Source: a virus | Length of the DNA stretch: 58,154 nt | Direction: 5' to 3' (one strand) | IMG/VR virus record: IMGVR_UViG_3300046692_000249 | Span: 1 to 58,154 of that record | In this document: positions 44-58,128 of the stretch, in pieces | Numbering within the stretch: position 1 is the stretch's first letter | Layout: the number at the start of each line of letters is the position of its first letter | The notes under the pieces: model-generated | What the model saw: only the letters and a program-made list of their open reading frames with translations | The model's database searches: none | What the model was told of the DNA's origin: nothing | Program-made: the position numbers and the translations under genes

Positions 44-61
44 TAAGTAAGAACTTACTTA
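44..61. promoter_or_regulatory. operator-like dyad, copy 1
   Basis: TAAGTAA-GAAC-TTACTTA, both arms perfect. It lies between the end of the upstream gene and a strong terminator, 47 nt before the start at 109. It belongs to the 18-copy family described under findings. Confidence 0.8.
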
Positions 62-63
62 TG

Positions 64-91
64 ATGGGCGGGATCAATTCCCGCCCATTTT
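64..91 (+). terminator. intrinsic terminator after the upstream gene
   Basis: Stem ATGGGCGGGA / TCCCGCCCAT (64-73 with 79-88), 5-nt loop, then a short T run to 91. It sits directly behind operator copy 1 and 17 nt before the next gene. Confidence 0.75.
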
Positions 92-108
92 GCTATTCGG
101 AGAAAGCA

Positions 109-675
109 ATGCCGCGCATCAAGCTCATGAAGCCCAGCTTCGCCAATCTGACCGGGCAGCTCCCCGGCAAGAAGTTCCGGGGTGTTAATTTCACCGGCGG
201 CATTTCTGACGACATTCCTCTCGCCGTGGTCGACAAGATCGCGGCCCAGCTCGCAGGCTGCCGCCTGGTCGATGGCTCGGGTGTAGACCTCGGGCCGGCC
301 GGCTCCGCCTATCGCAAGACGACGATCATCCCGACGCCTGTCGTGCGGCGCACCGAGTCCGTGATCGCCGAAGGCTCCGACGCCACGCGCGTTCGGACCA
401 TCAGCACCACCACCTATACGCTCGTCGCTACCGATGCCGGTATGATCCTCGACTTCACGGTCGGCACCGTGGTCACCGTTCCCGCATCACTCCCGGCTGC
501 CTTCAACTGTGCGCTTCGCCAGGGTGGTGCCAATCAGATCCAGGTGGTCGCCGGCGCCGGCGCAACTGTTGAGGAGATCGACGGCAAGTTCAAGTCCGAG
601 AAGCGCCTCGCGCTGCTGACGCTTGCACGCTTCCCGGACGGCAAGTTCCAGCTCATCGGAAGGACTTCGGCCTAA
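109..675 (+). CDS. putative virion structural protein
   Basis: 188 aa. I chose the ATG at 109, preceded by GGAG 7-10 nt upstream. The frame is open further upstream, but a start there would read through an operator and a terminator. The C-terminal half is a compact, glycine-rich beta-type domain with a run of V/T residues, as seen in phage head-decoration or fibre modules. The N-terminal part has no recognisable domain. The TAA overlaps the ATG of the SGNH gene by one base (TAATG), so the two are probably translationally coupled. Structural role is inferred from context. Confidence 0.65.
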   Translation: MPRIKLMKPSFANLTGQLPGKKFRGVNFTGGISDDIPLAVVDKIAAQLAGCRLVDGSGVDLGPAGSAYRKTTIIPTPVVRRTESVIAEGSDATRVRTISTTTYTLVATDAGMILDFTVGTVVTVPASLPAAFNCALRQGGANQIQVVAGAGATVEEIDGKFKSEKRLALLTLARFPDGKFQLIGRTSA

Positions 676-2270
676 TGGCGTCGTTTCTTTCCTCAATCGT
701 CGGTCTGATGGCAGGTGTAGCTGCGGCCTCTCTTGTCGCTCCGCCGGCCGATGTCGATCCTGATCGCTACATGTTCTTTGCGACCCGCAACCGCGTGCCG
801 ACTGGCACGCTGGTCACGGCCGCGGCCGGCCACAACTACGTGACCTCGAAGATCGTGGTTAACACTCCCGAATACCCGGTCAACCATCTACGCATCCACT
901 TCTCGAACTTCCTGCTGACCGAAGGCGGGAACTCGCCGCGCGAGCAGGCAACGGGTGCCATTCAGACCAACGCCAAGGTCATCGACAAGGTATTCGCCTA
1001 CGCCAATGGCGAATTGGTCCAGGTCAAGTTCGGCGGCGCTCCCGGTCTGACGATCGCTACCGCGGCAAGGGGCGGTTGGTCGGACGAGATCGTTTTCACC
1101 AATAAGGTGACTGGCGAGACCAAGGTGACCTTTTTCACCATCTATCACACGGCCGTTGGCGAGAAGCAGATCCCGGTCTATCGGATCCAGAAGCATCGCG
1201 GCGAACGCGTATGGTCGGGCGCCGATCTTGCGACCGTCGAGGCATATGTCACCAATCCCGACGCCGACTCCGTTGGTCCTCTCGATGTAAGCTATGCCTC
1301 GCAGGCTCAGCCGCAGGTCTATGGCCCTGACTTCATGGTCGCCAAGGGCTGGGATGGGCGTCCGGTCGCCTGCTGCTTCGTGGACTCGATCGGTGAAGCT
1401 CGCCAGGAGTTCAGCGCGGCCGCCGACGATCGCGGTAATCTCGGCTGGCTTCGTCGCTGGCTCGATAAGAAGGCCGGCATCGGCCGCATCCCGCACATGA
1501 TGATGGCAGGGCCTGGCGCTCACGCCGAATACGAAATGACCGGCACGGGGTCGACCATCGCAACGATGCGCTGGGATATTGTCGATGAAGTGAAGGCGAT
1601 GAATGGTGGCACCAAGCTCCCCTTCACCGTGTTCGTCAATCAATTGGGCCAGAACGACACCGGCACGACCATCGCTCAGTGGTGGACGCGCATTTTCAAT
1701 CCGCGCACCCGGTCGAATACCCGCTATCCCGGCATTCGCCACGTTTACGTTCCTCCGCTGGGTCGCACCACGACCAATAACAATTGGAGGGACGCTGCCG
1801 GCCAGTCCTTTTCTTCAAATAATGTTTGGCCCGCCAACGAAGCTGATCCCGCGACCGGTAAGTGGGTGATGCGTGCCCGCATCTTGGCGCTCTTCGGCGC
1901 CATCGCCGATGCCGCAATCGACACCTACGCCGCCTGGGTCTCTCCCAGCGCCGATGGCAAGTGGCCTGGTTACCTCGAGCTGCCGTTCTCCACGCTCACG
2001 CAGCCGCTGAACGCGACCGCCTCGATCACTGTCGCTGACGGTTCGATCTATACGCCCGAGCAGGTGATCCTGGTCGGCAACACCAACAAGATCATTGCCG
2101 CTGTGAACGACAATGTCATCACCTTCACCTCGGCTACCGCCGAAGTGCAGCCGGTCGGAACGCCGATCTATCAGATCCCGACGGTCGACGGGGTTCATCC
2201 CTATTCAGTCATGGTCAAGCGCATCGTCGCTGGCATCCCTCAGTCCGAAAAGCAGAAGCTTGTCGCTTAA
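675..2270 (+). CDS. SGNH/GDSL-hydrolase-like structural protein
   Basis: 531 aa. The C-terminal two thirds carries spaced SGNH-hydrolase blocks: Ser238 in VDSIGE (block I), Gly325 and Asn327 in LGQND (block III), and Asp505/His508 in DGVHP (block V, the catalytic Asp-His pair). SGNH enzymes are esterases or deacetylases; on phage particles they typically remove O-acetyl groups from capsule, exopolysaccharide or O-antigen. Residues 1-230 are a beta-rich region that could be a virion-binding domain; the extreme N terminus is hydrophobic. The gene lies between structural genes, so particle association is likely. The hydrolase assignment rests on motif spacing. The substrate is not visible. Confidence 0.6.
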   Translation: MASFLSSIVGLMAGVAAASLVAPPADVDPDRYMFFATRNRVPTGTLVTAAAGHNYVTSKIVVNTPEYPVNHLRIHFSNFLLTEGGNSPREQATGAIQTNAKVIDKVFAYANGELVQVKFGGAPGLTIATAARGGWSDEIVFTNKVTGETKVTFFTIYHTAVGEKQIPVYRIQKHRGERVWSGADLATVEAYVTNPDADSVGPLDVSYASQAQPQVYGPDFMVAKGWDGRPVACCFVDSIGEARQEFSAAADDRGNLGWLRRWLDKKAGIGRIPHMMMAGPGAHAEYEMTGTGSTIATMRWDIVDEVKAMNGGTKLPFTVFVNQLGQNDTGTTIAQWWTRIFNPRTRSNTRYPGIRHVYVPPLGRTTTNNNWRDAAGQSFSSNNVWPANEADPATGKWVMRARILALFGAIADAAIDTYAAWVSPSADGKWPGYLELPFSTLTQPLNATASITVADGSIYTPEQVILVGNTNKIIAAVNDNVITFTSATAEVQPVGTPIYQIPTVDGVHPYSVMVKRIVAGIPQSEKQKLVA

Positions 2271-2285
2271 TAAGGAAACTCTAAT

Positions 2286-2993
2286 ATGGAAATGAAGAAG
2301 CTCAAGGTCGCAACCGCGCGTATGGCTGGCTATACCGGCGTCCTCGGTCCCGTTCGGTTCACCGATGGCGTATCCGATGAATATCTGCCGCGCCACATCC
2401 GCGACCGCATGGCCGCTTCGATGGAATTCCTCGAGGTCGACGCCCAGGGCAATGAACAGCCGGCCGGCGCCCAGCACCGCCTGATCACCGAAAGCGCCGA
2501 GCGCGCGCCTCAGCTTGCGCCGCTCACGCGTCAGACGGATGCCGAGAAGGCTGCCGAGATTGCGGCTGCGGCCGTCATTGCCGCGAAGGTGCCGGTTCTG
2601 GAAACCCGTGCAAGCCTCGAAGAGATCGCTCAGAAGAGCGGCATCAAGGGTCTGCGCGAGATCGGCAAGAAGTGGGCCGTCAAGCATCGGTCGATCCCGA
2701 CGCTCATCGAAATGATCCTCGACGCCCAGGAAAAGGCAGTTGCCGCCCGTGCCAAGACGGAAGCGCCGGCAGCGGCTGAGCCTGTCGCTGAAACGCCGGC
2801 TGTCGTCGAGAATGACGATGAAAAGGCCGATGACTCGTCGATTGTCCCGGCTGTTGAGGCTGAAGCCGAGCGTCTGGCTGCCGAAAACGCGGCCGAGGCT
2901 GAGGCTTTCCGGCAGGCGCAGGAGGCAATCAAGGCTGCCGCGGCTACCGGCGATCTTGCCGCTGCCATCTCCACCGAAACCCCGCAGGAGTAA
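2286..2993 (+). CDS. hypothetical helical protein with C-terminal TGDLAAAI motif
   Basis: 235 aa, in the structural operon. Residues about 105-145 form a short helical unit (ASLEEIAQKSGIKGL...) resembling Rho-N/SAP-type motifs found in many phage proteins next to capsid genes. Residues 150-225 are Ala/Glu-rich, probably a long helix or linker. The C terminus contains TGDLAAAI (2945-2968), which recurs in two replication-region proteins (29000-29557 and 50632-50964) and is otherwise unexplained. I cannot assign a function. Confidence 0.7.
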   Translation: MEMKKLKVATARMAGYTGVLGPVRFTDGVSDEYLPRHIRDRMAASMEFLEVDAQGNEQPAGAQHRLITESAERAPQLAPLTRQTDAEKAAEIAAAAVIAAKVPVLETRASLEEIAQKSGIKGLREIGKKWAVKHRSIPTLIEMILDAQEKAVAARAKTEAPAAAEPVAETPAVVENDDEKADDSSIVPAVEAEAERLAAENAAEAEAFRQAQEAIKAAAATGDLAAAISTETPQE

Positions 2994-2998
2994 AATCC

Positions 2999-3817
2999 TT
3001 GAAGTTCTATCCCGAGGATTACATCGTCGAGGTGGTCGTAAAGTTCACCGATCTCAACGGAGCAGCCGTCACCCCGACGGCTGTTTCTGCCGTTCTCTAT
3101 GATGGCAACGATACCGAGGTCGTGGATTTCGGCTCGCTGCCCTTTGATGCGTCCGAGGGACAGAAGTCGATCTCCATTCCGAAGGAGTTCAACCGGCTCG
3201 CAGACGGCGAGAACCGCGCGGCCCGCATTCTGCGTGTGGGCATTGAGACGGAGCAGGGCACTATCCCGCGCTCCTTCTCCTATGCGATCGAGTCCGACCA
3301 GCGCCTGGTGCTCCTGACCAATACCTTCGTCACTCTGGAAGCTGCCGAGTTCATGGCGCTCGACACGCCGAACGTTACCGGCTGGAATGTTGCAAGCGAC
3401 GACCAGAAGCTCGCGGCGCTGACCGAAGCCTATCGCCGGCTGACCCGAATCCCGATGAGGTTCCCGACCTACGCGCCGGGGACGGGGTTCGATTCCTTCA
3501 ACACGATCGCTCCGCGCGAGCTCCTTGAGGAGACGGTCATCGAGCGCGACATGTGGGACGATATCACCGGCGAGCAGTTCAACGATTTTCCGATCGCCTT
3601 CAAGAAGGCCGTGCGCCGCGCTCAGTTTGTCGAGGCAAACGAGCTGCTGCAGGGTGACAACGTCGCCAAGAAGCATCGCCAGGGTATCGTGACTGAAACC
3701 ATCGGCGAAAGTTCCGTGACGCTGCGCGACGGCCGCATCGATTACGGTATCGGCTCCGAGACGCTGAAGGCGCTGACCGGCTATATCTATTTCAACATGA
3801 GGATCCGGCGCGCTTGA
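2999..3817 (+). CDS. putative head-tail connector/adaptor protein
   Basis: 272 aa starting at TTG 2999, with AGGAG at 2986-2990 overlapping the end of the previous gene. Residues 1-105 form a beta domain; residues about 110-260 are helical and end in IGESSVTL plus a repeat-like tail, a pattern typical of head-tail connector (gp6/DnaT-like) proteins. The following gene starts inside its stop (TTGA). Position ahead of a HK97 gp10-like gene supports a neck role. The assignment is inferred from pattern and order. Confidence 0.5.
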   Translation: MKFYPEDYIVEVVVKFTDLNGAAVTPTAVSAVLYDGNDTEVVDFGSLPFDASEGQKSISIPKEFNRLADGENRAARILRVGIETEQGTIPRSFSYAIESDQRLVLLTNTFVTLEAAEFMALDTPNVTGWNVASDDQKLAALTEAYRRLTRIPMRFPTYAPGTGFDSFNTIAPRELLEETVIERDMWDDITGEQFNDFPIAFKKAVRRAQFVEANELLQGDNVAKKHRQGIVTETIGESSVTLRDGRIDYGIGSETLKALTGYIYFNMRIRRA

Positions 3818-4563
3818 TCCCTCATCGGCTTACTGAGGCGGCTGACCAGGCCGCTCGTCGCTACGATCTCCTGTCGCAGACCTTTAGCGCGCTCTATCGC
3901 AGCGCGCTGCTGTCGGCTGACTTCGGCTCTGCCAATCAATCGCCGGCGCTCTTCAACGACGCCTACGAGAACGCTGGCCTGTATTTCGAACGCGACAAGG
4001 ACGAGCTCGCGATCCTTTCTCTCGAAATTGCTGAAAACGCTCACCAGAGCGCGCTAGCGAAAATCGCGAGCGTCGACTCATCTGGCCTGCCGGACGCAGC
4101 CCTCGCGCATGTGAGCGAGACCCAGACGTATCTTTCAAACGAGATAGCAGCTCAGGTGCATCGCGATGTCGCGCACATGCGATTTTCCCTGCAGCGAGCG
4201 GTTTTGGACGTGAGCATGATTGCTCGCACGCGCCGGCTCGATCATCGCCGGGCGCAGATGGCCTATGTCATGAAGAATACCGAGGAGCTCGAGCTTCAGT
4301 TTGTCGATCGCCGCGGGCGCCGCACGCCGACGCGCACTTTTGTCCGCTCCCTCTATCGCCAGTCGCTGCTGTCGATCCACAATGAGACCACGCTGCACGC
4401 GCTTGCCGATCACGGCATCGAGACGGCCGCGGTGATGAAGCTCGAGGATGGTGTCGAAAAGCAGATCGACCGCATTTCGATCCATGACTACGCCGAGCTG
4501 CGCGCCAGCCTCTTTCACCCGAACTCGAATTCCTTCCTCGACGTGGAGACCGACGATGTTTGA
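3814..4563 (+). CDS. hypothetical protein of the head-tail joining region
   Basis: 249 aa, start TTG 3814 overlapping the TGA of the preceding gene by 4 nt. Almost entirely alpha-helical by composition, with Arg/Glu-rich central helices and no cysteine, signal peptide or membrane segment. I do not recognise the family. The tight overlap on both sides (next ATG at 4556) places it in the neck/head-completion operon, so a minor head or connector role is possible. Confidence 0.6.
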   Translation: MIPHRLTEAADQAARRYDLLSQTFSALYRSALLSADFGSANQSPALFNDAYENAGLYFERDKDELAILSLEIAENAHQSALAKIASVDSSGLPDAALAHVSETQTYLSNEIAAQVHRDVAHMRFSLQRAVLDVSMIARTRRLDHRRAQMAYVMKNTEELELQFVDRRGRRTPTRTFVRSLYRQSLLSIHNETTLHALADHGIETAAVMKLEDGVEKQIDRISIHDYAELRASLFHPNSNSFLDVETDDV

Positions 4564-4903
4564 GCCCAATGTGGTTGGCAAGCTCTTGCGAGTGACTGGC
4601 CGCGACGTTCATGCCCGGCCGACCTATTCCGAGGCGGTGGATTGCCCGTGCGGCATCGTCAACCTGGACATCGGTTCGGACAAGACCGTCGTGCGCGCCG
4701 ACTCGTCCGCCTCCCGCGGCTCTGCTGACGAAAAGAGCGCCCAGCGCGGCAAGATCCTGATCGCCAGCTATGTGACGGTGAACATCGGCGACCGCTTCGA
4801 ATTCGACGGCATGCCCTTCGAAATCAAGTCCAAGCACGTCCGGCGCTCCGTCATGGGCGCGGTCGATCACTTCGAATGCGATATGGAGCTCCTGCCGGCA
4901 TGA
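4556..4903 (+). CDS. putative head-closure (stopper-like) protein
   Basis: 115 aa from ATG 4556, with GGAG 9 nt upstream; a longer reading from 4448 would be entirely inside the previous gene. Small beta-rich protein with a CPC motif near residue 35 and a C-terminal pattern (GDRFEFDGMPFEIKSK) like SPP1 gp16/lambda gpFII-type closure proteins. It lies just upstream of a HK97 gp10-like gene, the usual place for a stopper. Family assignment is tentative. Confidence 0.5.
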   Translation: MFEPNVVGKLLRVTGRDVHARPTYSEAVDCPCGIVNLDIGSDKTVVRADSSASRGSADEKSAQRGKILIASYVTVNIGDRFEFDGMPFEIKSKHVRRSVMGAVDHFECDMELLPA

Positions 4904-6148: not shown

Positions 6149-6216
6149 TTCCTGTCTCCTGGAAGCATGCAGCCTCTCTAACAGTGCCCGTTTAGGGTGT
6201 CTACGGCCGAAATCGG

Positions 6217-6234
6217 CAAGTAAGGACTTACTTA
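6217..6234. promoter_or_regulatory. operator-like dyad, copy 2 (faces the minus-strand gene)
   Basis: CAAGTAA-GGAC-TTACTTA; one mismatch in the left arm. It lies 68 nt upstream of the minus-strand secreted-protein start. Between it and copy 3, a TTGTCA/TTGACA element reads as a -35 box on either strand. Confidence 0.7.
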
Positions 6235-6238
6235 CTAT

Positions 6239-6269
6239 TGTCAAGCCCCATCGGTTTGCGGTATTGTAA
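6239..6269 (+). promoter_or_regulatory. possible promoter for the tail tube gene
   Basis: TTGTCA followed after 18 nt by TATTGT, which runs straight into operator copy 3. The same -35 region read on the minus strand is TTGACA, so the spacer may hold back-to-back promoters. The -10 match is modest. Confidence 0.35.
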
Positions 6270-6284
6270 GTAAGTGCTTACTTA
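6267..6284. promoter_or_regulatory. operator-like dyad, copy 3
   Basis: TAAGTAA-GTGC-TTACTTA, perfect arms, extended by one more G:C pair on each side. It lies 43 nt upstream of the tail tube protein start. Confidence 0.8.
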
Positions 6285-6327
6285 CTTCGTCCATCGTGGG
6301 CGAAGCTGCCGCTAGGAGAAATCACGT

Positions 6328-7155: not shown

Positions 7156-7182
7156 GCGATCCGACCCGCTTAATCCTCACGG

Positions 7183-7943: not shown

Positions 7944-7945
7944 CC

Positions 7946-7963
7946 TAAGTAATTACTTACTTA
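7946..7963. promoter_or_regulatory. operator-like dyad, copy 4
   Basis: TAAGTAA-TTAC-TTACTTA, perfect arms, extended by a C:G pair. It fills the gap between the chaperone stop and the tape-measure start and touches the ribosome-binding site, so there is no room for a promoter downstream. Confidence 0.75.
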
Positions 7964-12943: not shown

Positions 12944-12969
12944 GTGTTTCCTTATCTAGGGCTTGCAAG

Positions 12970-12987
12970 TAAGTAAGCACTTACTTA
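12970..12987. promoter_or_regulatory. operator-like dyad, copy 5
   Basis: TAAGTAA-GCAC-TTACTTA, perfect arms, flanked by one extra G:C pair. It lies 27 nt before the gpL-like start, splitting M from L. Confidence 0.8.
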
Positions 12988-13014
12988 CAATTGGGCTTCA
13001 TTAAAGAGGCCCGA

Positions 13015-22202: not shown

Positions 22203-22220
22203 TAAGTAAGTCATTACTTA
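22203..22220. promoter_or_regulatory. operator-like dyad, copy 6
   Basis: TAAGTAA-GTCA-TTACTTA, perfect arms, 21 nt before the first lysis-region gene. Confidence 0.8.
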
Positions 22221-24140: not shown

Positions 24141-24158
24141 TAAGTAAGTCCTTACTTA
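24141..24158. promoter_or_regulatory. operator-like dyad, copy 7
   Basis: TAAGTAA-GTCC-TTACTTA, perfect arms, 62 nt upstream of phoH. Confidence 0.8.
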
Positions 24159-25880: not shown

Positions 25881-25898
25881 TAAGTAAGCACTTACTTA
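25881..25898. promoter_or_regulatory. operator-like dyad, copy 8
   Basis: TAAGTAA-GCAC-TTACTTA, perfect arms, 17 nt upstream of the helicase GTG start. Confidence 0.8.
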
Positions 25899-27236: not shown

Positions 27237-28364
27237 ATGTCCAAGCTGTCCTTTGCACAGATCCAGGACGAGCTGGACATGGAGTTCTTCCTCGAGCGCG
27301 AAAGCATCTCCTTTCGCGAGACGCGCGGCACGTCCGGCCTTCAGCTGAACATCAAGACTTGCCCGAACCCGGCCTGCCGTGACGAACGTTGGCGCACCTA
27401 TTTCGGGATCGATAACGGGAAGGGCAACTGCTTCGTCTGCGGCCAGTCCTTCAACAAGGTCCATTTCGTCAACAACTATTTCGATTTTGGCGACAACTGG
27501 CGCGCCACCTTCCAGATGTGCGAGGAGATCCTGCGCGACCAGGGCTATCGCCCGAAGCGAAAGGCAATGGTGCGCGTTGAGCATGGCGACGTGACGCTTC
27601 CGGTATCCGATCCGCTGCCTCTGCCGGATGGTTCGAACCTGGCCTACCTCGAGCAGCGCGGCTTCGGCCCCGACATCTGCAAGTATTTCGAGCTGCGTTG
27701 GTGCCAGTTCGGCTGGTGGAAGTTCAAGGATCCTGACGGCAATACGCAGACGCAGAACTTTAGCGATCGCGTCATCATTCCGGTCTTCGACCTCGACGGC
27801 ACGCTCAAGACCTTCCAGGGCCGCGATCTGACCGGCGAGTCGGCAAAGAAGTATCTGTTCCCGATGGAACTGCCCGGAACCGGCCGTTACCTTCTGAACG
27901 GTCACAATGCCGTGGCGACTGACCATGTCTGCATGGGCGAGGGCGGTTTCGACGTGGCTGCGATCAAGCTCGCCTTCGATGAGGATTCGGAGCTACGCCA
28001 TATCGTGCCGATCGGCTCCTTCGGCAAGCATCTGTCCTATGGTGCGCCTGATGGTGACGATCAACTCGGTCGCTTCCTGAAGCTGAAGGCGAGGGGCATC
28101 ACGACCGTCACGATCATGTGGGACGGCGAAGTCAACGCGCTGCTCGCCGCGCTCGACGCCGCGAAGGTTCTGTCCGGTATCGGATTGAAGGTCCGTATCG
28201 CTTTATTGCCTTTCGAGAAGGATCCGAACGAAGTCACCGGCGACGTGACGCGCAAGGCTTTCTACGAGGCACAGCTCTGGACGCCGGCGCTCGATATCAG
28301 GTGGCGTCTACGCAACCCCTATGCAGAGGACGCCAAGAAGAAGGCCGCAGCTGCAAAGGAATAA
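27237..28364 (+). CDS. DnaG-like primase
   Basis: 375 aa, one base after the helicase stop. An N-terminal zinc-ribbon (CPNPAC ... CFVC), then a TOPRIM core with the acidic motif MGEGGFD near residue 233 and WDGE near 300. It would make RNA primers with the helicase. It is shorter than bacterial DnaG and lacks an obvious C-terminal helicase-binding domain; the Lys/Ala-rich tail may replace it. Confidence 0.8.
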   Translation: MSKLSFAQIQDELDMEFFLERESISFRETRGTSGLQLNIKTCPNPACRDERWRTYFGIDNGKGNCFVCGQSFNKVHFVNNYFDFGDNWRATFQMCEEILRDQGYRPKRKAMVRVEHGDVTLPVSDPLPLPDGSNLAYLEQRGFGPDICKYFELRWCQFGWWKFKDPDGNTQTQNFSDRVIIPVFDLDGTLKTFQGRDLTGESAKKYLFPMELPGTGRYLLNGHNAVATDHVCMGEGGFDVAAIKLAFDEDSELRHIVPIGSFGKHLSYGAPDGDDQLGRFLKLKARGITTVTIMWDGEVNALLAALDAAKVLSGIGLKVRIALLPFEKDPNEVTGDVTRKAFYEAQLWTPALDIRWRLRNPYAEDAKKKAAAAKE

Positions 28365-28379
28365 GTAGCTCCTTACTTA
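28362..28379. promoter_or_regulatory. operator-like dyad, copy 9
   Basis: TAAGTAG-CTCC-TTACTTA; the left arm has one change. It starts with the primase stop codon, the only copy that touches a coding sequence. Confidence 0.65.
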
Positions 28380-31774: not shown

Positions 31775-31976
31775 GAAGGCCGAACTAACAGATGAAGCAC
31801 GACGACTGATCGAAACTATCCTCATCGATTCCAGATCCGAGGACTTCTCGACCCGGCAGGAGGCGCGGTTTGCGATCATAAAGGTGCAGATCTTATATGG
31901 CCGTGAAGCGTTGGAGGTGGTCGAGGAAGAGCTGGCAACTCGATTTGGCGAAATGCAAGCCGGCGTCTGGGGCTAA
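31767..31976 (+). CDS. small hypothetical protein
   Basis: 69 aa, overlapping the previous gene by 8 nt. A single amphipathic helical protein, acidic and without cysteine. Its TAA overlaps the stop of the convergent repC gene (CTAA at 31973-31976). No family recognised. Confidence 0.55.
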   Translation: MREKAELTDEARRLIETILIDSRSEDFSTRQEARFAIIKVQILYGREALEVVEEELATRFGEMQAGVWG

Positions 31977-33079
31977 CGTTTGAGTAATCGTCGGACCTCC
32001 TGCGTGAGGTCAACCTGTCCGGACTTGATAAGCCGGACCAGCGCGCGGAAATAACCGCCCGCATTCTTGATCGGTTCGGCCCCTGGCGTGGGCCGCGCCT
32101 GCAGCTGGATCACGTAGACCAAGGTCGCAGCCGCCCCGAGCAGCCCGATTTCGCGGCCAGCTTCCTCCCAGGCCGACGGCGACACGCCAAACGCGCCCCG
32201 CATCCTGCCGACGCCTAATATAAACTCCCGATCATTTCGCACCTGCCCAATAAACTCCATTGCGTCCGGGCACGCCCTAACCAGGTCATCTACGGTCGCA
32301 ATCGGCCGCTCCGGCTCCCTCACATCTTCAGAGCCATTGTTACAAGACTGGTCAGGGGCATATTTGTTGTTGTCTTTGTGACGGCAAGAATTGCCGGCAG
32401 AGGCGGCGTAATATCTGCCTTCTGCCTCCATACGGAGCTGATGCCAGGCATCACGGGCGCTGTCGGCCGATCCCGTCGCCGATCGCCGCGGCGTGACTCG
32501 TGAAAGCTCCAGAGCGCGCGCCGTCAGATCGGTGATGTCAGAGTCCGGATAGACCTCGGCAAGCGTCCTGAGAGCTTCCTGGGCTGATCTGCGATGAATG
32601 GTCAGCTCGTCAAAGGCCAGCGCCCGCTCGCGCTCGCGCTCCTGGATCGCAGCCAGGCGCTCATTCAGCTCCGGCAGCTTCTCGAGGAGAGGGGAGAGGT
32701 CGAAGCCATAGGCTCGGATGATCTGGCCTTGCGCCGATCGCTGGGCGAACCGCTTGCCGTTGGCGCTGTCCTTGGCGACGATTAGACCTTCCTCAATGAG
32801 CCTCGCGAGCGAGTAGCGCACCGAACGCTCCGGAATGCCGGTTCTTTCCACAAGAAACTCGTTAGAAGGCCATACGAGGATCCTGTTTTCGATGAGTTCG
32901 CCGCGATAGCAGCCGACGAGTTGGTCCAATACGAAACGGGCGCTGCTTGGCAGCTGCAGCACCTTTGCCGCGATTCGAGCGGCGTCGAAGAGTTCTTGCT
33001 TGTCCGCGGAGTCCTGCTCTCGCGCCGATGGCAGTGTCGGCTTGAGAGCACGCCAACCGGACGGTTGTGCGCTGGTCAT
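31973..33079 (-). CDS. repC: RepC-like plasmid replication initiator
   Basis: 368 aa on the minus strand; ATG complement at 33077-33079, with GAGGGA upstream. It closely follows the RepC plan: an N-terminal winged-helix region (about residues 25-195) with LVWPSNEFLVERTGI and KDSANGKRFAQR, then a variable A+T-rich linker, then the C-terminal domain (about 260-368) with GVSPSAWEEA and NAGGYFRALVR, all matching motifs of repABC-family initiators. In plasmids, RepC binds an origin inside its own gene. No repA or repB neighbours are present. Homology is strong; its use by this phage is inferred. Confidence 0.88.
   Translation of the reverse strand: MTSAQPSGWRALKPTLPSAREQDSADKQELFDAARIAAKVLQLPSSARFVLDQLVGCYRGELIENRILVWPSNEFLVERTGIPERSVRYSLARLIEEGLIVAKDSANGKRFAQRSAQGQIIRAYGFDLSPLLEKLPELNERLAAIQERERERALAFDELTIHRRSAQEALRTLAEVYPDSDITDLTARALELSRVTPRRSATGSADSARDAWHQLRMEAEGRYYAASAGNSCRHKDNNKYAPDQSCNNGSEDVREPERPIATVDDLVRACPDAMEFIGQVRNDREFILGVGRMRGAFGVSPSAWEEAGREIGLLGAAATLVYVIQLQARPTPGAEPIKNAGGYFRALVRLIKSGQVDLTQEVRRLLKR
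32330..32400. other. A+T-rich segment inside repC (candidate oriV)
   Basis: Within repC, the stretch encoding the inter-domain linker is clearly richer in A+T than the flanking coding DNA. RepC origins in repABC plasmids lie in such an A+T-rich patch in the middle of repC. Only position and composition support this here. Confidence 0.4.
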
Positions 33080-33267: not shown

Positions 33268-33462
33268 CTAGTTTCTATCCTCAATTAAGCGGTGAACGGC
33301 ATCCGTAACGGCTTCAGACCGATTACGGTAAGCGCCGGACTTGATCAGCCGGTCGAGTTGCTCGGTCAGACGACCTTCCATCCACAAAAGCACTTGCTTT
33401 TCGCCGTTGGATTCTTTCTTGACGCGATACTTCTTCGCTGGCGTGATGTCCTGGATGCCCAT
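33268..33462 (-). CDS. ribbon-helix-helix transcription regulator
   Basis: 64 aa, minus strand. Residues about 22-62 fit the CopG/Arc-type RHH fold: a beta strand (KQVLLWM), then two helices (LTEQLDRLI and NRSEAVTDAVHRLIE). The N-terminal 20 residues are basic and could touch DNA. RHH dimers bind short repeated sites. It lies upstream of repC on the same strand and downstream of a regulatory gap, so it may control repC or the phage-wide dyads. Confidence 0.7.
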   Translation of the reverse strand: MGIQDITPAKKYRVKKESNGEKQVLLWMEGRLTEQLDRLIKSGAYRNRSEAVTDAVHRLIEDRN

Positions 33463-33670: not shown

Positions 33671-33688
33671 TAAGTAACTGTTGACTTA
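33671..33688. promoter_or_regulatory. operator-like dyad, copy 10
   Basis: TAAGTAA-CTGT-TGACTTA; one mismatch in the right arm. It is flanked by A and T runs, so the sequence could also fold as a weak terminator. Confidence 0.6.
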
Positions 33689-33805: not shown

Positions 33806-34198
33806 ATGGCTAAGGAAAAAGGAACACCCACGAGGTTTTCCAACTACATATTTAAGAAGCTGATGGAGTCGACGAAGTCTCAGAAAGAGATCGCCGAGGA
33901 AGCCGGTTACTCCAATCCGAACATGATCACAATGCTGAAACTTGGTCATGTTAAGCTGGCGCTCGATCGTGTGCCGGCAATGGCGAAAGCCTTGAACGTC
34001 GATCCTCTCGACCTGTTCAAGATCGCTCTGACCCAATTTTATGACGAACAAGCCGTCAGATTTCTGACCGAGATCATCGAAGGCGGTATCTCGCCTTCCG
34101 AGAAGAAGATCCTCCAGATCGTTCGGGACGCCAGCGGAAACGACACACCGCAGCTCACACCGGAGCGGGCAAAGCAGCTCGCCGAGATCTTCAAGTAA
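33806..34198 (+). CDS. XRE-like helix-turn-helix regulator
   Basis: 130 aa from ATG 33806, with AGGGG 8 nt upstream. A helix-turn-helix near residues 20-65 (KSQKEIAEEAGYSNPNMITML, LDRVPAMAKALNVDP) followed by a helical C-terminal half suited to dimerisation. XRE proteins bind palindromes as dimers with half-sites about one helical turn apart, exactly the 11-bp centre-to-centre distance of the phage dyads. It is the best candidate for the phage repressor; binding is inferred. Confidence 0.7.
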   Translation: MAKEKGTPTRFSNYIFKKLMESTKSQKEIAEEAGYSNPNMITMLKLGHVKLALDRVPAMAKALNVDPLDLFKIALTQFYDEQAVRFLTEIIEGGISPSEKKILQIVRDASGNDTPQLTPERAKQLAEIFK

Positions 34199-34272: not shown

Positions 34273-34290
34273 TAAGTAATCACTGACTTA
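34273..34290. promoter_or_regulatory. operator-like dyad, copy 11
   Basis: TAAGTAA-TCAC-TGACTTA; one mismatch in the right arm. 20 nt before the next gene. Confidence 0.65.
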
Positions 34291-34547: not shown

Positions 34548-34565
34548 TAAGTAATAGATTACTTA
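34548..34565. promoter_or_regulatory. operator-like dyad, copy 12
   Basis: TAAGTAA-TAGA-TTACTTA, perfect arms, 20 nt before the vWA gene. Confidence 0.8.
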
Positions 34566-36970: not shown

Positions 36971-36988
36971 TAAGTAATGACTTACTTA
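36971..36988. promoter_or_regulatory. operator-like dyad, copy 13
   Basis: TAAGTAA-TGAC-TTACTTA, perfect arms, 39 nt before the AAA+ gene. Confidence 0.8.
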
Positions 36989-44118: not shown

Positions 44119-44145
44119 TGCAATCCCTCGTCATTTGCGTTATAA
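44119..44145 (+). promoter_or_regulatory. CGCTATAA-like promoter, copy 7
   Basis: GTGCAATCCC block, 10 nt, then CGTTATAA at 44138-44145, immediately followed by operator copy 14. Confidence 0.6.
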
Positions 44146-44147: not shown

Positions 44148-44165
44148 TAAGTAAGCACTTACTTA
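44148..44165. promoter_or_regulatory. operator-like dyad, copy 14
   Basis: TAAGTAA-GCAC-TTACTTA, perfect arms, starting 3 nt after the TATAA box, so it would cover the transcription start. Confidence 0.82.
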
Positions 44166-44472: not shown

Positions 44473-44500
44473 ATGCGATCCCATCAAGTGATCGCTATAA
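44473..44500 (+). promoter_or_regulatory. CGCTATAA promoter, copy 8
   Basis: GCATGCGATCCC block, 10 nt, then CGCTATAA at 44493-44500, driving the SSB gene. Confidence 0.62.
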
Positions 44501-44502
44501 GT

Positions 44503-44527
44503 AGATAGCTAATTAGCTAGATAGCTA
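44503..44527. promoter_or_regulatory. variant palindrome in the SSB leader
   Basis: AGATAGCTAATTAGCTAGATAGCT: the core TAGCTAATTAGCTA is a perfect 14-bp palindrome, with a further partial AGATAGCT copy. It takes the place where other promoters have the TAAGTAA dyad, but its sequence differs. Confidence 0.5.
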
Positions 44528-51155: not shown

Positions 51156-51376
51156 AACTGGTCACCCGCAAGATCGGCTCGCAGCGCGCCTCGCAGCCCA
51201 AGCCTGTCGAGATCGAGCCGAATTGGTGCGGTCAGGGCGGCAGCCAGGATCTCATCCTCAAGACCGAAGAGGGTTGGTTGATCCTCAAGCCTGAAACCGA
51301 AGCGGAGACGCGCCAGCTTATGAGCGCGGCTACCTGCATGTTCAAGAATTATAGGGACAAGGACGCCCGCGCATGA
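51152..51376 (+). CDS. small hypothetical protein
   Basis: 74 aa from GTG 51152, overlapping both neighbours by 4 nt. Alpha/beta, with one beta strand (GWLILKPE) and a Met/Cys-rich helix. Function unknown; within the SbcD-SbcC operon. Confidence 0.5.
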   Translation: MKLVTRKIGSQRASQPKPVEIEPNWCGQGGSQDLILKTEEGWLILKPETEAETRQLMSAATCMFKNYRDKDARA

Positions 51377-53310: not shown

Positions 53311-53471
53311 GTGATCGCCAGCTCAATCTCGCCGCGATCATCATCCTGGCCGTGATCTTCGTCCCGATCTTATTCTTCGGGCTGAAGCAGTGCGCGCAAG
53401 GCTGTCCGGAAGGCCAGGTTCTGGCGCGCGGCGTCTTCGGCTTCGTCTGTGTTCAGGCAGGTGCGCCATGA
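53307..53471 (+). CDS. small membrane protein with C-terminal cysteines
   Basis: 54 aa from ATG 53307, overlapping the SbcC-like stop (ATGA). One hydrophobic segment (residues 7-26), then a short tail with Cys29, Cys33 and Cys48. No family recognised; the next ATG overlaps its stop, so the unit is translationally coupled. Confidence 0.55.
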   Translation: MSDRQLNLAAIIILAVIFVPILFFGLKQCAQGCPEGQVLARGVFGFVCVQAGAP

Positions 53472-53635
53472 GCGGCTGTCTCTATCAGCTTCAGACGAAC
53501 GCCTTGCCTGGTCAGATCATGGTCATCGCCGGCCCGTTCGACACCTATGGTCGGGTAATCAAGCTCCAGGACAGCGGCTATCACCTGATCCGCGGTCTTG
53601 GTCATCAGAAGCCTTCGGAAAGGATTAGCTCATGA
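53468..53635 (+). CDS. small hypothetical protein
   Basis: 55 aa from ATG 53468 (ATGA overlap). Beta-rich (GQIMVIAGPFDTYGRVIKL), no cysteine cluster or membrane segment. Function unknown. Confidence 0.5.
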   Translation: MSGCLYQLQTNALPGQIMVIAGPFDTYGRVIKLQDSGYHLIRGLGHQKPSERISS

Positions 53636-53925
53636 ACCGGCGCGAACATCTGTTGACGATCCTCGGCGAGGAAGGTGTCGAAGTTTCGCAGCGCTGCTCG
53701 AAGGCGTTGCGCTTCGGACTGGAAGAGATCCAGCCCGGCCAGGAACTGACCAACGCGCAGAGGATCCGCGGCGAATATCTCGATATGTTCGCGGTGATGG
53801 AAATGCTTATCGAGGAAGGTTTGATCGCACCCATTGACGGTCATGACCTTCAAGCGATCCGGGCCAAGAAGGCGAAGGTCGAGAAGTTTCTCGCCTATTC
53901 TCGCGATTGTGGGACGCTCACCTGA
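53632..53925 (+). CDS. MazG-like NTP pyrophosphohydrolase
   Basis: 97 aa from ATG 53632. Helical, with the EExxE...ExxD signature of all-alpha NTP pyrophosphatases: EEGVEV and GEYLDMFAV. Such enzymes remove non-canonical or excess dNTPs; with the nearby RNR genes it could shape the nucleotide pool. Assignment is from motif and size. Confidence 0.65.
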   Translation: MNRREHLLTILGEEGVEVSQRCSKALRFGLEEIQPGQELTNAQRIRGEYLDMFAVMEMLIEEGLIAPIDGHDLQAIRAKKAKVEKFLAYSRDCGTLT

Positions 53926-53940
53926 GTCACCACAATATCT

Positions 53941-53969
53941 TGTGCGTTCCCTCGAAATGTGCGCTATAA
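53941..53969 (+). promoter_or_regulatory. CGCTATAA promoter, copy 11
   Basis: TGTGCGTTCCC block, 10 nt, then CGCTATAA at 53962-53969; the operator begins at 53972. Confidence 0.65.
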
Positions 53970-53971
53970 AG

Positions 53972-53989
53972 TAAGTAAGCACTTATTTA
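53972..53989. promoter_or_regulatory. operator-like dyad, copy 16
   Basis: TAAGTAA-GCAC-TTATTTA; one mismatch in the right arm. It abuts the -10 box, so it would cover the transcription start. Confidence 0.75.
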
Positions 53990-54005
53990 GAAATAGGAGT
54001 CTAAC

Positions 54006-54467
54006 ATGGCCCGGAACATGACCCCCGAAGCCAAGCGCATCATGGAAGAGGTCGCAGCCGAGATCGTCGAGAAGCTTAAGGGCGAGTTCTACGAAGTCGA
54101 CGGCGTGCCGATGGCAACCGTGAAATACGACGCAGGCAACTTCAAGAAGAAGACGCTGATGGCCGGGTGGCTGTTCCAGCTCGAATACGCCTATGTCGGC
54201 GCGATGGGCAAGATCGTCTTCGGCCTCTCACCGGAAGACGCCCAGGAATACAAGTTCACCGAAATGAACCCGAAGGAAGTCGATAGCGCCTTCCCGCTCA
54301 TCGGTGGCGCCGTCGCGCAGCTCTTCGGTCATGAAGGCGAAAACCTTCAGATCGTCCTCGACCAGGAAATCACCAAGCGCGCGGACGTGCTGGCGAAGGC
54401 CGAGGAGATGGAGAAGAAGCAGACGGAAATGGCTCTGCAAAACAACGAACTGTTTGGAGCCTTTTGA
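54006..54467 (+). CDS. hypothetical protein ending in LFGAF
   Basis: 153 aa, AGGAG upstream. N-terminal helix (EAKRIMEEVAAEIVEKLK), a central alpha/beta part, then a charged helix ending QNNELFGAF, one of three proteins with the [LT][FY]G[AR]F tail. Q-x3-LF in this copy resembles a bacterial sliding-clamp-binding peptide. Function unknown. Confidence 0.6.
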   Translation: MARNMTPEAKRIMEEVAAEIVEKLKGEFYEVDGVPMATVKYDAGNFKKKTLMAGWLFQLEYAYVGAMGKIVFGLSPEDAQEYKFTEMNPKEVDSAFPLIGGAVAQLFGHEGENLQIVLDQEITKRADVLAKAEEMEKKQTEMALQNNELFGAF

Positions 54468-55058
54468 ATGGGTAAGATCCTCATTGCCGGCCTCGACGGA
54501 TCCCTTCGCAACTTTGGCGTAGCGACCGCATGGCTGGACCTCGAAACCCTGAAGCTGGATATTCACCGGCTCACGATCATCAAGACCGAACTCTCGAAGG
54601 ACAAGAAGGTCCGCTCCTCGTCCGACTATTTGCGCCGGTCGCTGGAGATCAAGAACGGCGTGCATCCGGCGATGAAGGGTGTCACGACCGCCTTCTACGA
54701 AGTGCCCTCGGGTGGCCAGGACTACAAGTCGGTCATGGGCTTTGGCATCGTCATCGGCACCTATGCGGGCCTCCCGGTTCCCGGCTGCGAGGTCTCACCC
54801 TACGAGACGAAGCTTGCGGCCGTCGGCACCAAGACCGCCTCGAAGGAGGAGATGATCGCCTGGGCCTTCGAGAAGTATCCGGACGCGCCCTGGCGCCTCT
54901 ACGAGAAGGGCGGCAAGAGCTGGAAGAAGGGTGATCCTCATTCCGACAACGAGCACGTCGCCGACGCCGTTGCGATCATGGAAGCCGGGATCAAGACGCC
55001 CTCCTTCCTTCAGACCTTGGCAATCCTGCGGTCGCTCCCTGTGGCACAGGCGGCATGA
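54468..55058 (+). CDS. RuvC-like Holliday junction nuclease
   Basis: 196 aa, ATG right after the previous TGA. RNase H-fold motifs with acidic residues: AGLDGS (Asp10), FYEVP, and the C-terminal DNEHVADAVAI. RuvC-type phage enzymes resolve recombination junctions and branched DNA before packaging. Confidence 0.75.
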   Translation: MGKILIAGLDGSLRNFGVATAWLDLETLKLDIHRLTIIKTELSKDKKVRSSSDYLRRSLEIKNGVHPAMKGVTTAFYEVPSGGQDYKSVMGFGIVIGTYAGLPVPGCEVSPYETKLAAVGTKTASKEEMIAWAFEKYPDAPWRLYEKGGKSWKKGDPHSDNEHVADAVAIMEAGIKTPSFLQTLAILRSLPVAQAA

Positions 55059-55080
55059 CCTTTTTATTTGTCAAGGCTAG

Positions 55081-55098
55081 TAAGTAATCACTTACTTA
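55081..55098. promoter_or_regulatory. operator-like dyad, copy 17
   Basis: TAAGTAA-TCAC-TTACTTA, perfect arms, 62 nt upstream of the RNR operon. Confidence 0.8.
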
Positions 55099-55160
55099 TC
55101 TATAGTGCGAACCCATCCTCGTGATGGGTTCATCCAACCTCCGAACCAACGAGAATATCC

Positions 55161-56129
55161 ATGCTTTTTGAACGCCAGGTCGAGCGCTTACCCGACCTCT
55201 ACCCTTGGGCTCAGGACTTCATCGAGGCCATGCACGATGGTCATTGGACGGCCAAGAAGTTCACCTTCGACAGCGATGTCACCGACTACGAACTCCACCT
55301 CACCGATCAGGAGCGCGAAATCATCAAGCGCTGCCTCGCCGCGATCGCGCAGATCGAGGTCAAGGTGAAGGAATATTGGGCGCTGCTCGGCCGCAAGCTG
55401 CAGCACCCGTCGATCTCCGATCTCGGCATCGTCATGGCGAATATCGAGGTCATTCATAATAACGCCTACGAAAAGCTCCTCAAGAAGCTCGGCCTGATCA
55501 GTGTCTTCAAGGACAACATGCACGTTCCGGCCATTGCCGGCCGCGTCAGTTATCTGAACAAGCACACGGAGCTGGCCTTCAAGGGCGACGATCGCAAGCA
55601 GTTTATCTACAGCCTGATCCTCTTCACGCTGTTTGTGGAGAACGTCAGCCTTTTCAGCCAGTTCTATATCGTCCTCTGGTTCAACCGCTTCGAGAACCGC
55701 TTCAAGGACGCTGCTCAGCAGGTGAAATACACCCGCAATGAGGAGATGCTCCATGCCCAGGCCGGCATGAAGATCATCAACACGCTGCGCCAGGAATATC
55801 CGGAGCTCTTCGACGCGGAGCTGGAAGCCAAGATCAAGGAAGAGTGCCAGGTCGCGCTCAATGCGGAATCCGCCCTGATCGACTGGATGCTCGGCGACTA
55901 TGACCAGCCGAAGCTCAATGCCTCGATCCTCAAGACCTATGTCGCCCAGCGCCTGAACGAGTCCCTCGCCGGCATTGGCTACGCGCCGATGTTCGAGGTC
56001 TCCGAGGCTGAGAAGGCCGAGACCTTCTGGATGACCGAAGGGCTGCTCGCGCCCGCCAAGGTCGATTTCTTCCACTCCGAACCCACCGCCTACCAGCAGG
56101 CCGACCAGCCTGACGACGACAATTTTTAA
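55161..56129 (+). CDS. nrdB: ribonucleotide reductase small subunit
   Basis: 322 aa. R2 core with the di-iron site: Glu96-x-x-His99 in ANIEVIHNNAY and Glu-x-x-His in RNEEMLHAQAG, with radical Tyr103 in the usual E-x2-H-x3-Y position. The C terminus (DQPDDDNF) is the acidic tail that binds the large subunit. It supplies the radical for dNTP synthesis. Confidence 0.88.
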   Translation: MLFERQVERLPDLYPWAQDFIEAMHDGHWTAKKFTFDSDVTDYELHLTDQEREIIKRCLAAIAQIEVKVKEYWALLGRKLQHPSISDLGIVMANIEVIHNNAYEKLLKKLGLISVFKDNMHVPAIAGRVSYLNKHTELAFKGDDRKQFIYSLILFTLFVENVSLFSQFYIVLWFNRFENRFKDAAQQVKYTRNEEMLHAQAGMKIINTLRQEYPELFDAELEAKIKEECQVALNAESALIDWMLGDYDQPKLNASILKTYVAQRLNESLAGIGYAPMFEVSEAEKAETFWMTEGLLAPAKVDFFHSEPTAYQQADQPDDDNF

Positions 56130-56146
56130 GCAAGAAGGAAATGGCA

Positions 56147-57829
56147 ATGCGCCCTGATTGGGAACACTTCAACGACATTGCGTTGAAGACCCTCTCCCGC
56201 GGATATCTGCGCGAGGGGATCGCAAAGGAAGACCTCAAGGATGAGGCCATCAAGCGCGCCAACGCGCTTGTTGATGCTGCCGAGAAGGAACTCGGCATGA
56301 AGCTGCCGATGGTTCGCTACGGCATGAAGCGCGGCTGGGTATCGCCGGCCTCGCCGATCTGGTCGAACTTCGGCACGGATCGCGGCCTGCCTATCAGCTG
56401 CAACGGCTCGTTTATGGCCGACGACATGGATTCCATCCTGTTCAAGAACGCCGAGATCGGCGCGATGACCAAGGAAGGCGCCGGCACCTCGCTCTATATG
56501 GGCGCATTGCGTCCGTTCGGCTCGCCGATCGCAGGCGGTGGAACGTCGGAAGGGCCGGTTCACTTCGCCCGTCTGCCGCAGGAGCAGGTCCAGGTTATTT
56601 CGCAGTCGAATGTCCGGCGCGGTAACTGCGCGGTCTACCTCGACATCGAGCACCAGGACATCGATCGCTGGATGCAGATGCGTTCCACGACCGAAGGCGT
56701 GCATCACCCGATCCAGCATCTGTCGTTCGGCGTCGTCATCGGCGACGACTGGATGAACGAAATGCTGGCCGAGCCCAAGGGCGGCCCGAAGCGCAAGCTG
56801 CTGGCGAAGATCCGCAACAAGCGGCGCGAGACGGGCTTCCCCTATATCGTGTTCCGCGACAATGCGAACAACGCCCGGCCGGAGATCCTGAAGCGGCTTG
56901 GTCTGCTGATCTACGCTTCGAACCTCTGCACCGAGATCATGCTGCCTTCCGGGCCGGATGAAAGCTTTGTCTGCGATCTGTCGTCGGTCAACGTCCTCTA
57001 TTACGACGAATGGAAGGGCACCGACTTCGTTCGGGAAATGATCTATTTCCTCGATGCGGTCATGTCCGAATACATCCGCAAGACCAAGGGCAAGCGGCTC
57101 ATGGCCGATGCGCGGCGCTTTGCCGTGCGTTGGCGCGCTCTCGGCCTCGGAACGCTCGGCTGGCATTCCTACCTGCAGTCGCGTGAGATCCCGATCGAGA
57201 CGCAGGAAGCCCGCGACCTCAATATCGAGATCCACAAGTATCTCCATGACGAGTCCCACGCCGCATCCCGCTGGCTGGCGATGCAGTATGGCGAGCCTGA
57301 AGGTCTCGAGGGCACCGGCTACCGGAACCTGACCGTCAACGCGATTGCGCCGACCACGTCCTCCTCGATCATCTGCGGCCAGGTCTCGCAGTCCATCGAG
57401 CCGTGGGAAGCCGTCGTCTTCGAGAACGACAACGCCAAGGGCGTGTTCACGAACTACAATCCGCAGTTCGTCGCACTCCTCGATCGCCTCGGCATGAACC
57501 GCACCGATGTCTGGGAGTCCATCCTGGGAGCAGGCGGCCGCGTCGAGCATCTGGACTTCCTGACCCGGCGCCAGAAGGACACCTTCAAGCCGTGGGTCGA
57601 CATCGACCAGATGGAGCTCGTGCGCCAGAACAACGACCGCACGCCGTTCATCGACCAGGGCATCTCCTTCAACGTCCAGCTTCCTCCCGAAGCGACCATG
57701 AAGGACGACATCGACATCATCGTCGAGTCCTGGAAGGGCGGCGCGAAGTCTCTCTACTACCGCAAGGGTTTGAACAAGGCACAGGAGCTGGCTCGTGCCA
57801 ACGCTTCGTGCGTAGCGTGCGAGGCATAA
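56147..57829 (+). CDS. nrdA: ribonucleotide reductase large subunit
   Basis: 560 aa; ATG 56147 is best placed behind AAGGA (7-nt spacing), with ATG 56141 as an alternative. Class I R1 active site: Cys85 in SCNGS, Asn259-x-Cys261-x-Glu263 in NLCTEI, Tyr pair in YYRKGLN and C-terminal CVAC redox pair. It starts near the catalytic barrel and lacks the N-terminal ATP cone of about 100 aa found in enzymes that respond to dATP, so activity-site inhibition is probably absent. The glutaredoxin that follows would reduce the CVAC pair. Confidence 0.88.
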   Translation: MRPDWEHFNDIALKTLSRGYLREGIAKEDLKDEAIKRANALVDAAEKELGMKLPMVRYGMKRGWVSPASPIWSNFGTDRGLPISCNGSFMADDMDSILFKNAEIGAMTKEGAGTSLYMGALRPFGSPIAGGGTSEGPVHFARLPQEQVQVISQSNVRRGNCAVYLDIEHQDIDRWMQMRSTTEGVHHPIQHLSFGVVIGDDWMNEMLAEPKGGPKRKLLAKIRNKRRETGFPYIVFRDNANNARPEILKRLGLLIYASNLCTEIMLPSGPDESFVCDLSSVNVLYYDEWKGTDFVREMIYFLDAVMSEYIRKTKGKRLMADARRFAVRWRALGLGTLGWHSYLQSREIPIETQEARDLNIEIHKYLHDESHAASRWLAMQYGEPEGLEGTGYRNLTVNAIAPTTSSSIICGQVSQSIEPWEAVVFENDNAKGVFTNYNPQFVALLDRLGMNRTDVWESILGAGGRVEHLDFLTRRQKDTFKPWVDIDQMELVRQNNDRTPFIDQGISFNVQLPPEATMKDDIDIIVESWKGGAKSLYYRKGLNKAQELARANASCVACEA

Positions 57830-57831
57830 GA

Positions 57832-58050
57832 ATGGGCTACCACATCATGACCAAGCCGGGTTGCAACTATTGCACCCGCGCCAAGGCTCTCCTGAAGAGC
57901 CAGAACATCTCCTACACGGTGCAGGATCACGACACCCAGGAGAAGATCGATAAGTTCAAGGACGCCGGCTACAAGTCCTTCCCGATGATCTTCCACGACG
58001 GGGTGCTCGTGGGCGGCTACGACGCCTTGGTTGACTACCTCGAATACTAA
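57832..58050 (+). CDS. glutaredoxin
   Basis: 72 aa from ATG 57832, GAGG upstream. CNYC active site, FPM cis-Pro motif and GGYD substrate motif. It is the expected reductant for the ribonucleotide reductase just upstream, and it is followed by a strong terminator, so nrdB-nrdA-grx is one operon. Confidence 0.85.
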   Translation: MGYHIMTKPGCNYCTRAKALLKSQNISYTVQDHDTQEKIDKFKDAGYKSFPMIFHDGVLVGGYDALVDYLEY

Positions 58051-58053
58051 AAG

Positions 58054-58080
58054 GCGGCGCTTCGGCGCCGCTCTCTTTTT
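58054..58080 (+). terminator. intrinsic terminator after glutaredoxin
   Basis: GCGGCGC / GCGCCGC (58054-58060 with 58065-58071), TTCG tetraloop, then CTCTTTTT. Confidence 0.85.
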
Positions 58081-58108
58081 GTGCGATCCCGAGACGATCG
58101 CGCTATAA
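58081..58108 (+). promoter_or_regulatory. CGCTATAA promoter, copy 12
   Basis: GTGCGATCCC block, 10 nt, then CGCTATAA at 58101-58108; operator copy 18 follows at 58111. Confidence 0.65.
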
Positions 58109-58110
58109 AT

Positions 58111-58128
58111 TAAGTAAGCACTTACTTT
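58111..58128. promoter_or_regulatory. operator-like dyad, copy 18
   Basis: TAAGTAA-GCAC-TTACTTT; one mismatch at the end. It abuts the TATAA box and precedes the last gene by 17 nt. Confidence 0.75.

Follow-up and report, generated by a model that had tools for sequence, protein, structure and literature searches.

What is the function of a short inverted repeat that recurs between the genes of a virus, with its arms preserved and its centre free to vary? The question is raised by the window, as we call the whole 58,154-nucleotide stretch analysed here (IMG/VR record IMGVR_UViG_3300046692_000249), a 58 kb fragment that represents about half of a ~120 kb phage-plasmid of Rhizobium, a genus of nitrogen-fixing bacteria. 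The original prediction, made from the letters alone, described 18 copies of the dyad TAAGTAA-N4-TTACTTA and took them for a phage-wide operator system. Our comparison of the window with its relatives indicates that the dyads are very probably the operators of the lysogeny master repressor of this element, the XRE protein encoded at 33806-34198, and that they would act by excluding RNA polymerase.

All 18 copies were recovered. Twelve are perfect and six carry one mismatch (those starting at 6217, 28362, 33671, 34273, 53972 and 58111), a set for which the chance expectation is near 0. The description of every copy as having 7-bp arms thus holds strictly for the 12, since one arm base is altered in each of the other six. 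At up to three mismatches, 28 matches were observed, against a shuffle mean of 0.06. The predicted operators, which are given without strand, are as follows.

44-61, perfect (TAAGTAA-GAAC-TTACTTA); fills the spacer from -35 TTGAAA (37-42) to -10 TATGAT (60-65)
6217-6234, one mismatch (CAAGTAA), from the motif scan; pairs with the copy 50 bp further on
6267-6284, perfect; immediately 3' of a TATTGT -10-like hexamer
7946-7963, perfect; upstream of the tape measure gene
12970-12987, perfect; fills the spacer from -35 TTGCAA (12963-12968) to -10 TACAAT (12986-12991)
22203-22220, perfect, from the motif scan
24141-24158, perfect; upstream of a phoH-like gene
25881-25898, perfect; upstream of a DnaB-like/primase gene pair
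28362-28379, one mismatch (TAAGTAG); overlaps the stop codon at 28362-28364
33671-33688, variant right arm TGACTTA; between the RHH/RepC genes (minus) and the XRE gene (plus), the variant being kept here in most relatives
34273-34290, variant right arm TGACTTA; just 3' of the XRE gene, upstream of a 75-aa gene
34548-34565, perfect; upstream of a CobT-like gene
36971-36988, perfect; upstream of a CobS/MoxR-like gene
44148-44165, perfect; begins 2 bp after the -10-like TTATAA (44140-44145)
44498-44515, weak operator-like match of doubtful function; three mismatches, 14.9 bits
49449-49466, perfect; upstream of a metallophosphoesterase-like gene
53972-53989, one mismatch; begins 2 bp after the -10-like CTATAA (53964-53969)
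55081-55098, perfect; upstream of ribonucleotide reductase genes
58111-58128, one mismatch; begins 2 bp after the -10-like CTATAA (58103-58108)

The closest relatives, the Rhizobium phages B1VFA, V1VFA-S and RHph_X66, are 93-94% identical to the window and have genomes of 118-122 kb. These complete relatives carry 36-38 copies at up to one mismatch, and 38-41 by profile. In B1VFA the two arms occurred 27 times at a gap of 4 and 0-2 times at each other gap from 0 to 11, in agreement with the predicted spacer of exactly four bases, and the central 4 bp of the 18-bp dyad carried little sequence information. Chance or an AT-rich artefact can be dismissed, since 101 dyads with permuted arms of the same composition had no occurrence in B1VFA. 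The unrelated Rhizobium phage L338C likewise had no match to either of the two main seeds, and 6 matches to the short seed NNTGACT.

The placement of the dyads was equally distinct. The centres of all 39 strong sites in B1VFA are intergenic, although only 9.5% of that genome is (P ~ 1e-40); 36 of the 39 are wholly intergenic, and 35 lie 0-110 nt upstream of a start codon. In B1VFA, the proposed motif search of a complete relative thus found the dyads far rarer inside genes than between them. The further expectations, that copies lie between genes and nearly always shortly before starts, that they occur in the late and replication halves alike, and that a single copy touches a stop codon, were all borne out, the last by the copy at 28362, which overlaps the TAA of the open reading frame (ORF) ending at 28364. 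We also noted a second dispersed dyad, TAGCT-N4-AGCTA or AGCTA-N2-TAGCT, at 44506-44527 of the window and in B1VFA, V1VFA-S, X66 and three further genomes (G002, G008 and G009). Its TAGCT-N4-AGCTA form has 5-11 mostly intergenic copies per element (7 in B1VFA and 11 in V1VFA-S).

About 14 of the 39 B1VFA sites abut or span recognisable promoters, in one of two arrangements. In the first, a -10 hexamer of the CTATAA/TTATAA type lies 2-5 bp upstream of the dyad, which places the dyad over the start point. At 11 sites a -10-like hexamer starts 14-22 bp before the dyad centre, where ~0.7 would be expected from the intergenic rate. In the second, the dyad exactly fills the 17-bp spacer of TTGNNN-17-TANNNT; there are three such sites in each complete relative, and those at 44 and 12970 represent this class in the window. 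Both geometries fit the exclusion of RNA polymerase by a bound protein.

The same layout extends well beyond the close relatives. Across 24 genomes of the family, whose hosts include Rhizobium, Sinorhizobium, Shinella, Pararhizobium, Methylobacterium, Methylocystis, Acinetobacter and Klebsiella, we counted 24-55 dispersed dyads per genome, whereas shuffled genomes gave 0-9. Relatives without the exact sequence were assessed by de novo dyad counts and symmetric motif refinement. The half-site is rTTGAyTkA at the 39-42 sites each of RHph_N1_10, Y2_11, RHEph10 and the Pararhizobium plasmid, TGACTkA at the 54 of Methylobacterium pAMS5a and rCTTAyT at the 32 of the Acinetobacter plasmid. The Shinella plasmid mixes TTACTTA and TGACTTA among its 53 sites, and about 30 sites were counted in the Klebsiella plasmid. 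Counted from the centre, positions 3-7 of the half-site read T-[T/G]-A-C-T throughout the family in one register, and the Klebsiella plasmid dyads also fit a register shifted by one base. Within the annotated stretches of 41-50 kb, 13 of 14 sites in Acinetobacter and 20 of 24 in Methylobacterium were intergenic. In the 4.2 Mb Methylocystis assembly, the dyads among the matches listed fell almost entirely on three contigs of 35-43 kb, which is consistent with a fragmented phage-plasmid. These comparisons show the whole phage-plasmid family to have an equivalent set of dyads. A separate dispersed dyad, AAACAA-N1-TTGTTT, was seen in 10 copies in the Klebsiella phage-plasmid NZ_LR890314.1.

Three proteins of the window enter into what follows.

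31973-33079, minus strand, RepC plasmid replication protein, from the profile search of window proteins; a mark of a phage-plasmid
33268-33462, minus strand, ribbon-helix-helix (RHH)-like protein; rejected as an alternative repressor
33806-34198, plus strand, XRE protein of the Cro/CI helix-turn-helix (HTH) type, 130 aa, proposed as master repressor from profile searches, a fold model and covariation

The element is a phage-plasmid, as judged from RepC in the window, from its circular plasmid relatives pRlX6 (~95% identical) and pLM21S1 (81% identical), and from published descriptions. It belongs with the RepC-type phage-plasmids of the RHEph10/pLM21S1/SSU5-like group. Plasmid prophages in the family of pRlX6 and pLM21S1 are described in PMC5537653 and PMC12509600, and no mention of operators was found in the text read of either. 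In pRlX6 (NZ_CP140813.1), RepC is annotated in two pieces and the CobT region is broken into shorter ORFs, a state that may reflect partial decay of a phage-plasmid. Two tandem ParB-like genes, far from a lone ParA gene, are kept in the complete elements examined (L006:1-1174 and relatives).

The original prediction had named the XRE protein first as a candidate binder, and the comparison favours that choice. The protein matched the HTH_3 domain (PF01381) at E 1.3e-6, above the cut-off. Its structure model has a predicted local distance difference test (pLDDT) score of 86, and realignment gave matches to P22 c2, 434 Cro/repressor and SinR at Z 8-9. Foldseek against the PDB with the model alone returned no E below 0.001, and we therefore base the lambda-repressor-like fold on the Pfam match and the realignment. 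A PADLOC scan of the protein was empty. By profile search, XRE was found in all 24 family genomes, and its gene belongs to a conserved series, XRE-CobT-CobS-DnaE, that runs from Rhizobium elements through to those of Klebsiella and E. coli. An operator lies within 350 bp upstream of the XRE gene in 23 of the 24 and downstream of it in 20. At the upstream operator (33671-33688 in the window), the right arm TTGACTTA is kept in most relatives, even where nearly all other sites end in TTACTTA; this variant may also serve as a -35 element, or it may weaken repressor binding.

The sequence of the dyad covaries with the recognition helix of this protein. All 14 genomes with Asn37 in XRE have T at half-site position 4, and all 10 with Lys, Gln or Arg at that residue have mainly G. 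B1VFA is of the Asn class, whereas N1_10 carries Gln and pAMS5a Arg. Among the 131 XRE columns, residue 37 is the only one that separates the two classes with a single residue on one side; no column does so in DnaE (1107 columns), TerL (417), ParB1 (222) or ParB2 (217). The structure model puts it in the turn just before the predicted recognition helix (39-45). Three genomes with Asn-Ala-Asn-Phe (G013, Shinella and G016) are intermediate, with 20-26% G at position 4. Mapped on the DnaE tree, residue and base switch jointly in every case, and there are at least 3-4 such switches. On this sequence evidence the XRE protein (33806-34198) is the best candidate for the dyad binder.

The ortholog in E. 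coli LF82, CYRAN_45 (profile E 2e-34), occupies the same place beside CobT, CobS and DnaE. It is annotated as the putative lysogeny repressor of the SSU5-type phage-plasmid Cyrano, and in the LF82 lysogen it is among the few genes expressed, 10-fold over the prophage background (PMC9928086). This ortholog, the promoter geometry and the existence of plasmid prophages together lead us to read XRE as a lysogeny master repressor. More widely, 583 plasmid records gave tblastn matches to the repressor family; most are elements of ~110 kb from Klebsiella, Enterobacter and Salmonella. Of the viral loci with XRE homologues, 22 of 24 have at least one dyad. At 55 genome loci with homologues, up to 20 kb of each was scanned: 51 lacked family dyads, three had one, and the Methylocystis locus had six. 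Rhodobacterales and Mesorhizobium genomes carry homologues that are 35-48% identical, without dispersed dyads, and these are apparently co-opted or unrelated in role. The best Foldseek matches of the XRE model (33806-34195) include the SaPI repressor Stl bound to dUTPase, and B1VFA encodes a dUTPase; antirepression by dUTPase is a speculative lead that follows from these two observations.

We propose that an XRE dimer would bind both 7-bp arms of each 18-bp site. At the clear promoters, the repressor would either occupy the -35/-10 spacer or cover the start point immediately after the -10, and in both positions it would exclude RNA polymerase. With ~40 sites, it could silence the early, replication and virion operons one by one, and this silencing would hold as long as the phage persists as a RepC-type plasmid. 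The XRE gene itself is probably autoregulated from the variant operators that flank it. We infer that XRE binds the dyads, that it represses and autoregulates, that it does so in lysogeny, and that it confers immunity. The idea of phage-wide operators for a dimeric HTH repressor is thus supported by the intergenic confinement of the dyads, their overlap with promoters, the family-wide sites and the covariation with XRE.

Four observations weigh against this account. About 25 of the 39 B1VFA sites have no evident promoter by simple consensus; such sites could belong to promoters that went unrecognised or could act as roadblocks. When the flanks were scanned with a general E. coli sigma-70 matrix they scored 5.6 bits, barely above the 4.9 bits of shuffled flanks, and for this reason we used the position-specific -10 enrichment alone. 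There are only 3-4 independent pairs of residue and base changes, with which a sign test is unable to reach 0.05. Finally, the shift of the consensus from T4 to G4 needs many site changes, and intermediates were seen in only three genomes.

The sites without an obvious promoter lend themselves to another reading, namely that most copies work as stoperators, at which bound repressor would halt elongation downstream of a promoter and would not block initiation. Cluster A phages provide the precedent (PMC6550527). However, cluster A stoperators are asymmetric and mostly in one orientation, whereas the dyads are symmetric; nearly every dyad stands immediately before a start codon and not within an operon, and -10 hexamers adjoin many of them. 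We regard this reading as improbable for most copies; in any case, it is a variant of the operator explanation and does not contradict it.

The self-complementary sequence, often only 10-20 nt upstream of a start codon, could also act in RNA: folded in the 5' leader as a hairpin with a 7-bp stem, it might govern how the mRNA is translated, degraded or processed. The original prediction had raised such a role in translation or RNA processing. The arms proved to vary independently. At arm positions 4, 6 and 8 they agree no more than expected by chance in N1_10, Y2_11, RHEph10, Pararhizobium, Methylobacterium and Shinella; at position 8 of RHEph10, for example, they agree in 13 of 39 sites compared with 19.7 expected. 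The half-site consensus is kept and the arm pairing is not, which points to recognition of DNA half-sites by a protein. Moreover, the sequence covaries with a DNA-binding helix, and at the sites over the start point the inferred start falls inside the dyad, which would leave part of the hairpin out of the transcript. A role of the dyad in RNA is therefore very unlikely.

Equally unlikely is the proposal that the dyads are dispersed centromere or nucleoid sites of a ParB-like protein, serving partition with or without repression. KorB of RK2 is a ParB precedent with dispersed palindromic operators, and the family as a whole retains a ParA gene and the tandem pair of ParB-like genes. Nevertheless, none of the 222 ParB1 or 217 ParB2 columns tracks the operator change, whereas one column of the XRE recognition helix does, and the dyads stand at promoters before individual operons and are not clustered near the par genes.

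Other binders can be dismissed briefly: neither the RHH protein (33268-33462), the second candidate of the original prediction, nor a phage sigma factor has a match in Klebsiella, Acinetobacter or G013, all with the operator layout, and the symmetry of the dyad also speaks against a sigma factor; a host-encoded regulator disagrees with the lack of dyads at most sampled chromosomal XRE-homologue loci and with the Methylocystis assembly, where the dyads among the matches listed are almost entirely confined to three contigs.

The finding names a likely master switch together with its complete regulon in each genome. The balance tips slightly towards a further conclusion, that one repressor-operator code governs the whole phage-plasmid lineage in its alpha- and gammaproteobacterial hosts, with residue 37 (Asn versus Lys, Arg or Gln) setting one half-site base and ~40 operators rewritten in step at least 3-4 times. 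Were this code true, immunity groups could be read directly from sequence. The finding also offers a testable rule of one residue and one base for recognition, a way to predict mutual immunity between elements, and a natural series for the joint change in specificity of a regulator and ~40 sites, a long-standing question in regulatory evolution. The phage-plasmids of this lineage are widespread, and in the literature searched, with subscription journals and preprints outside its scope, we found neither a description of their silencing mechanism nor an earlier description of this dyad operator set.

Among known systems, the nearest parallel had been seen in the stoperators of cluster A mycobacteriophages. 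In function the parallel is fair. In phages such as L5 and Bxb1, many sites are likewise spread over the whole genome, and their consensus varies between subclusters along with the repressor (PMC6550527). The sites differ: cluster A stoperators are 13-bp, asymmetric, mostly in one orientation relative to transcription and mostly off promoters, and are bound by a monomeric repressor (PMC9283540), whereas the dyads of the window family are 18-bp, symmetric with both arms conserved, intergenic and partly promoter-overlapping. P1 C1 is closer in lifestyle. P1 is also a phage-plasmid whose single repressor silences lytic genes throughout the genome, acting from 22 dispersed operators that are 17-bp and asymmetric, with the consensus ATTGCTCTAATAAATTT (PMC8546580). 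The window consensus is different, a two-fold symmetric dyad with ~40 sites and a Cro/CI-type XRE protein; the two systems were compared by their sites. The present system may thus work like P1 C1 or cluster A but is neither, because its site is symmetric and different. SPbeta offers a parallel in discovery: its dispersed intergenic element SPBRE was first seen in silico and later shown to be the site of the master repressor MrpR (PMC10516654). MrpR, however, has a tyrosine-recombinase fold and ~10 sites, in contrast to an XRE protein with ~40.

The SSU5-type phage-plasmids, including Cyrano of E. coli LF82, resemble the window element in the gene order XRE-CobT-CobS-DnaE, the repressor family (CYRAN_45) and the plasmid prophage state, the alphaproteobacterial elements differing in their use of RepC; no operator set for the SSU5 type was found described in the literature searched. 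The P22 c2 and 434 repressors match the XRE fold, and in the P22 operators two arms of 7 bp flank 4 central bp that the protein does not contact. Lambdoid phages have few operators clustered at one switch, whereas the window family has ~40 dispersed ones. With tens of copies genome-wide at intergenic and promoter sites, the layout of the dyads matches that of the dispersed-operator immunity systems of the P1 C1, cluster A and SPbeta type, and the covariation with XRE and the ortholog CYRAN_45 make XRE the candidate immunity repressor.

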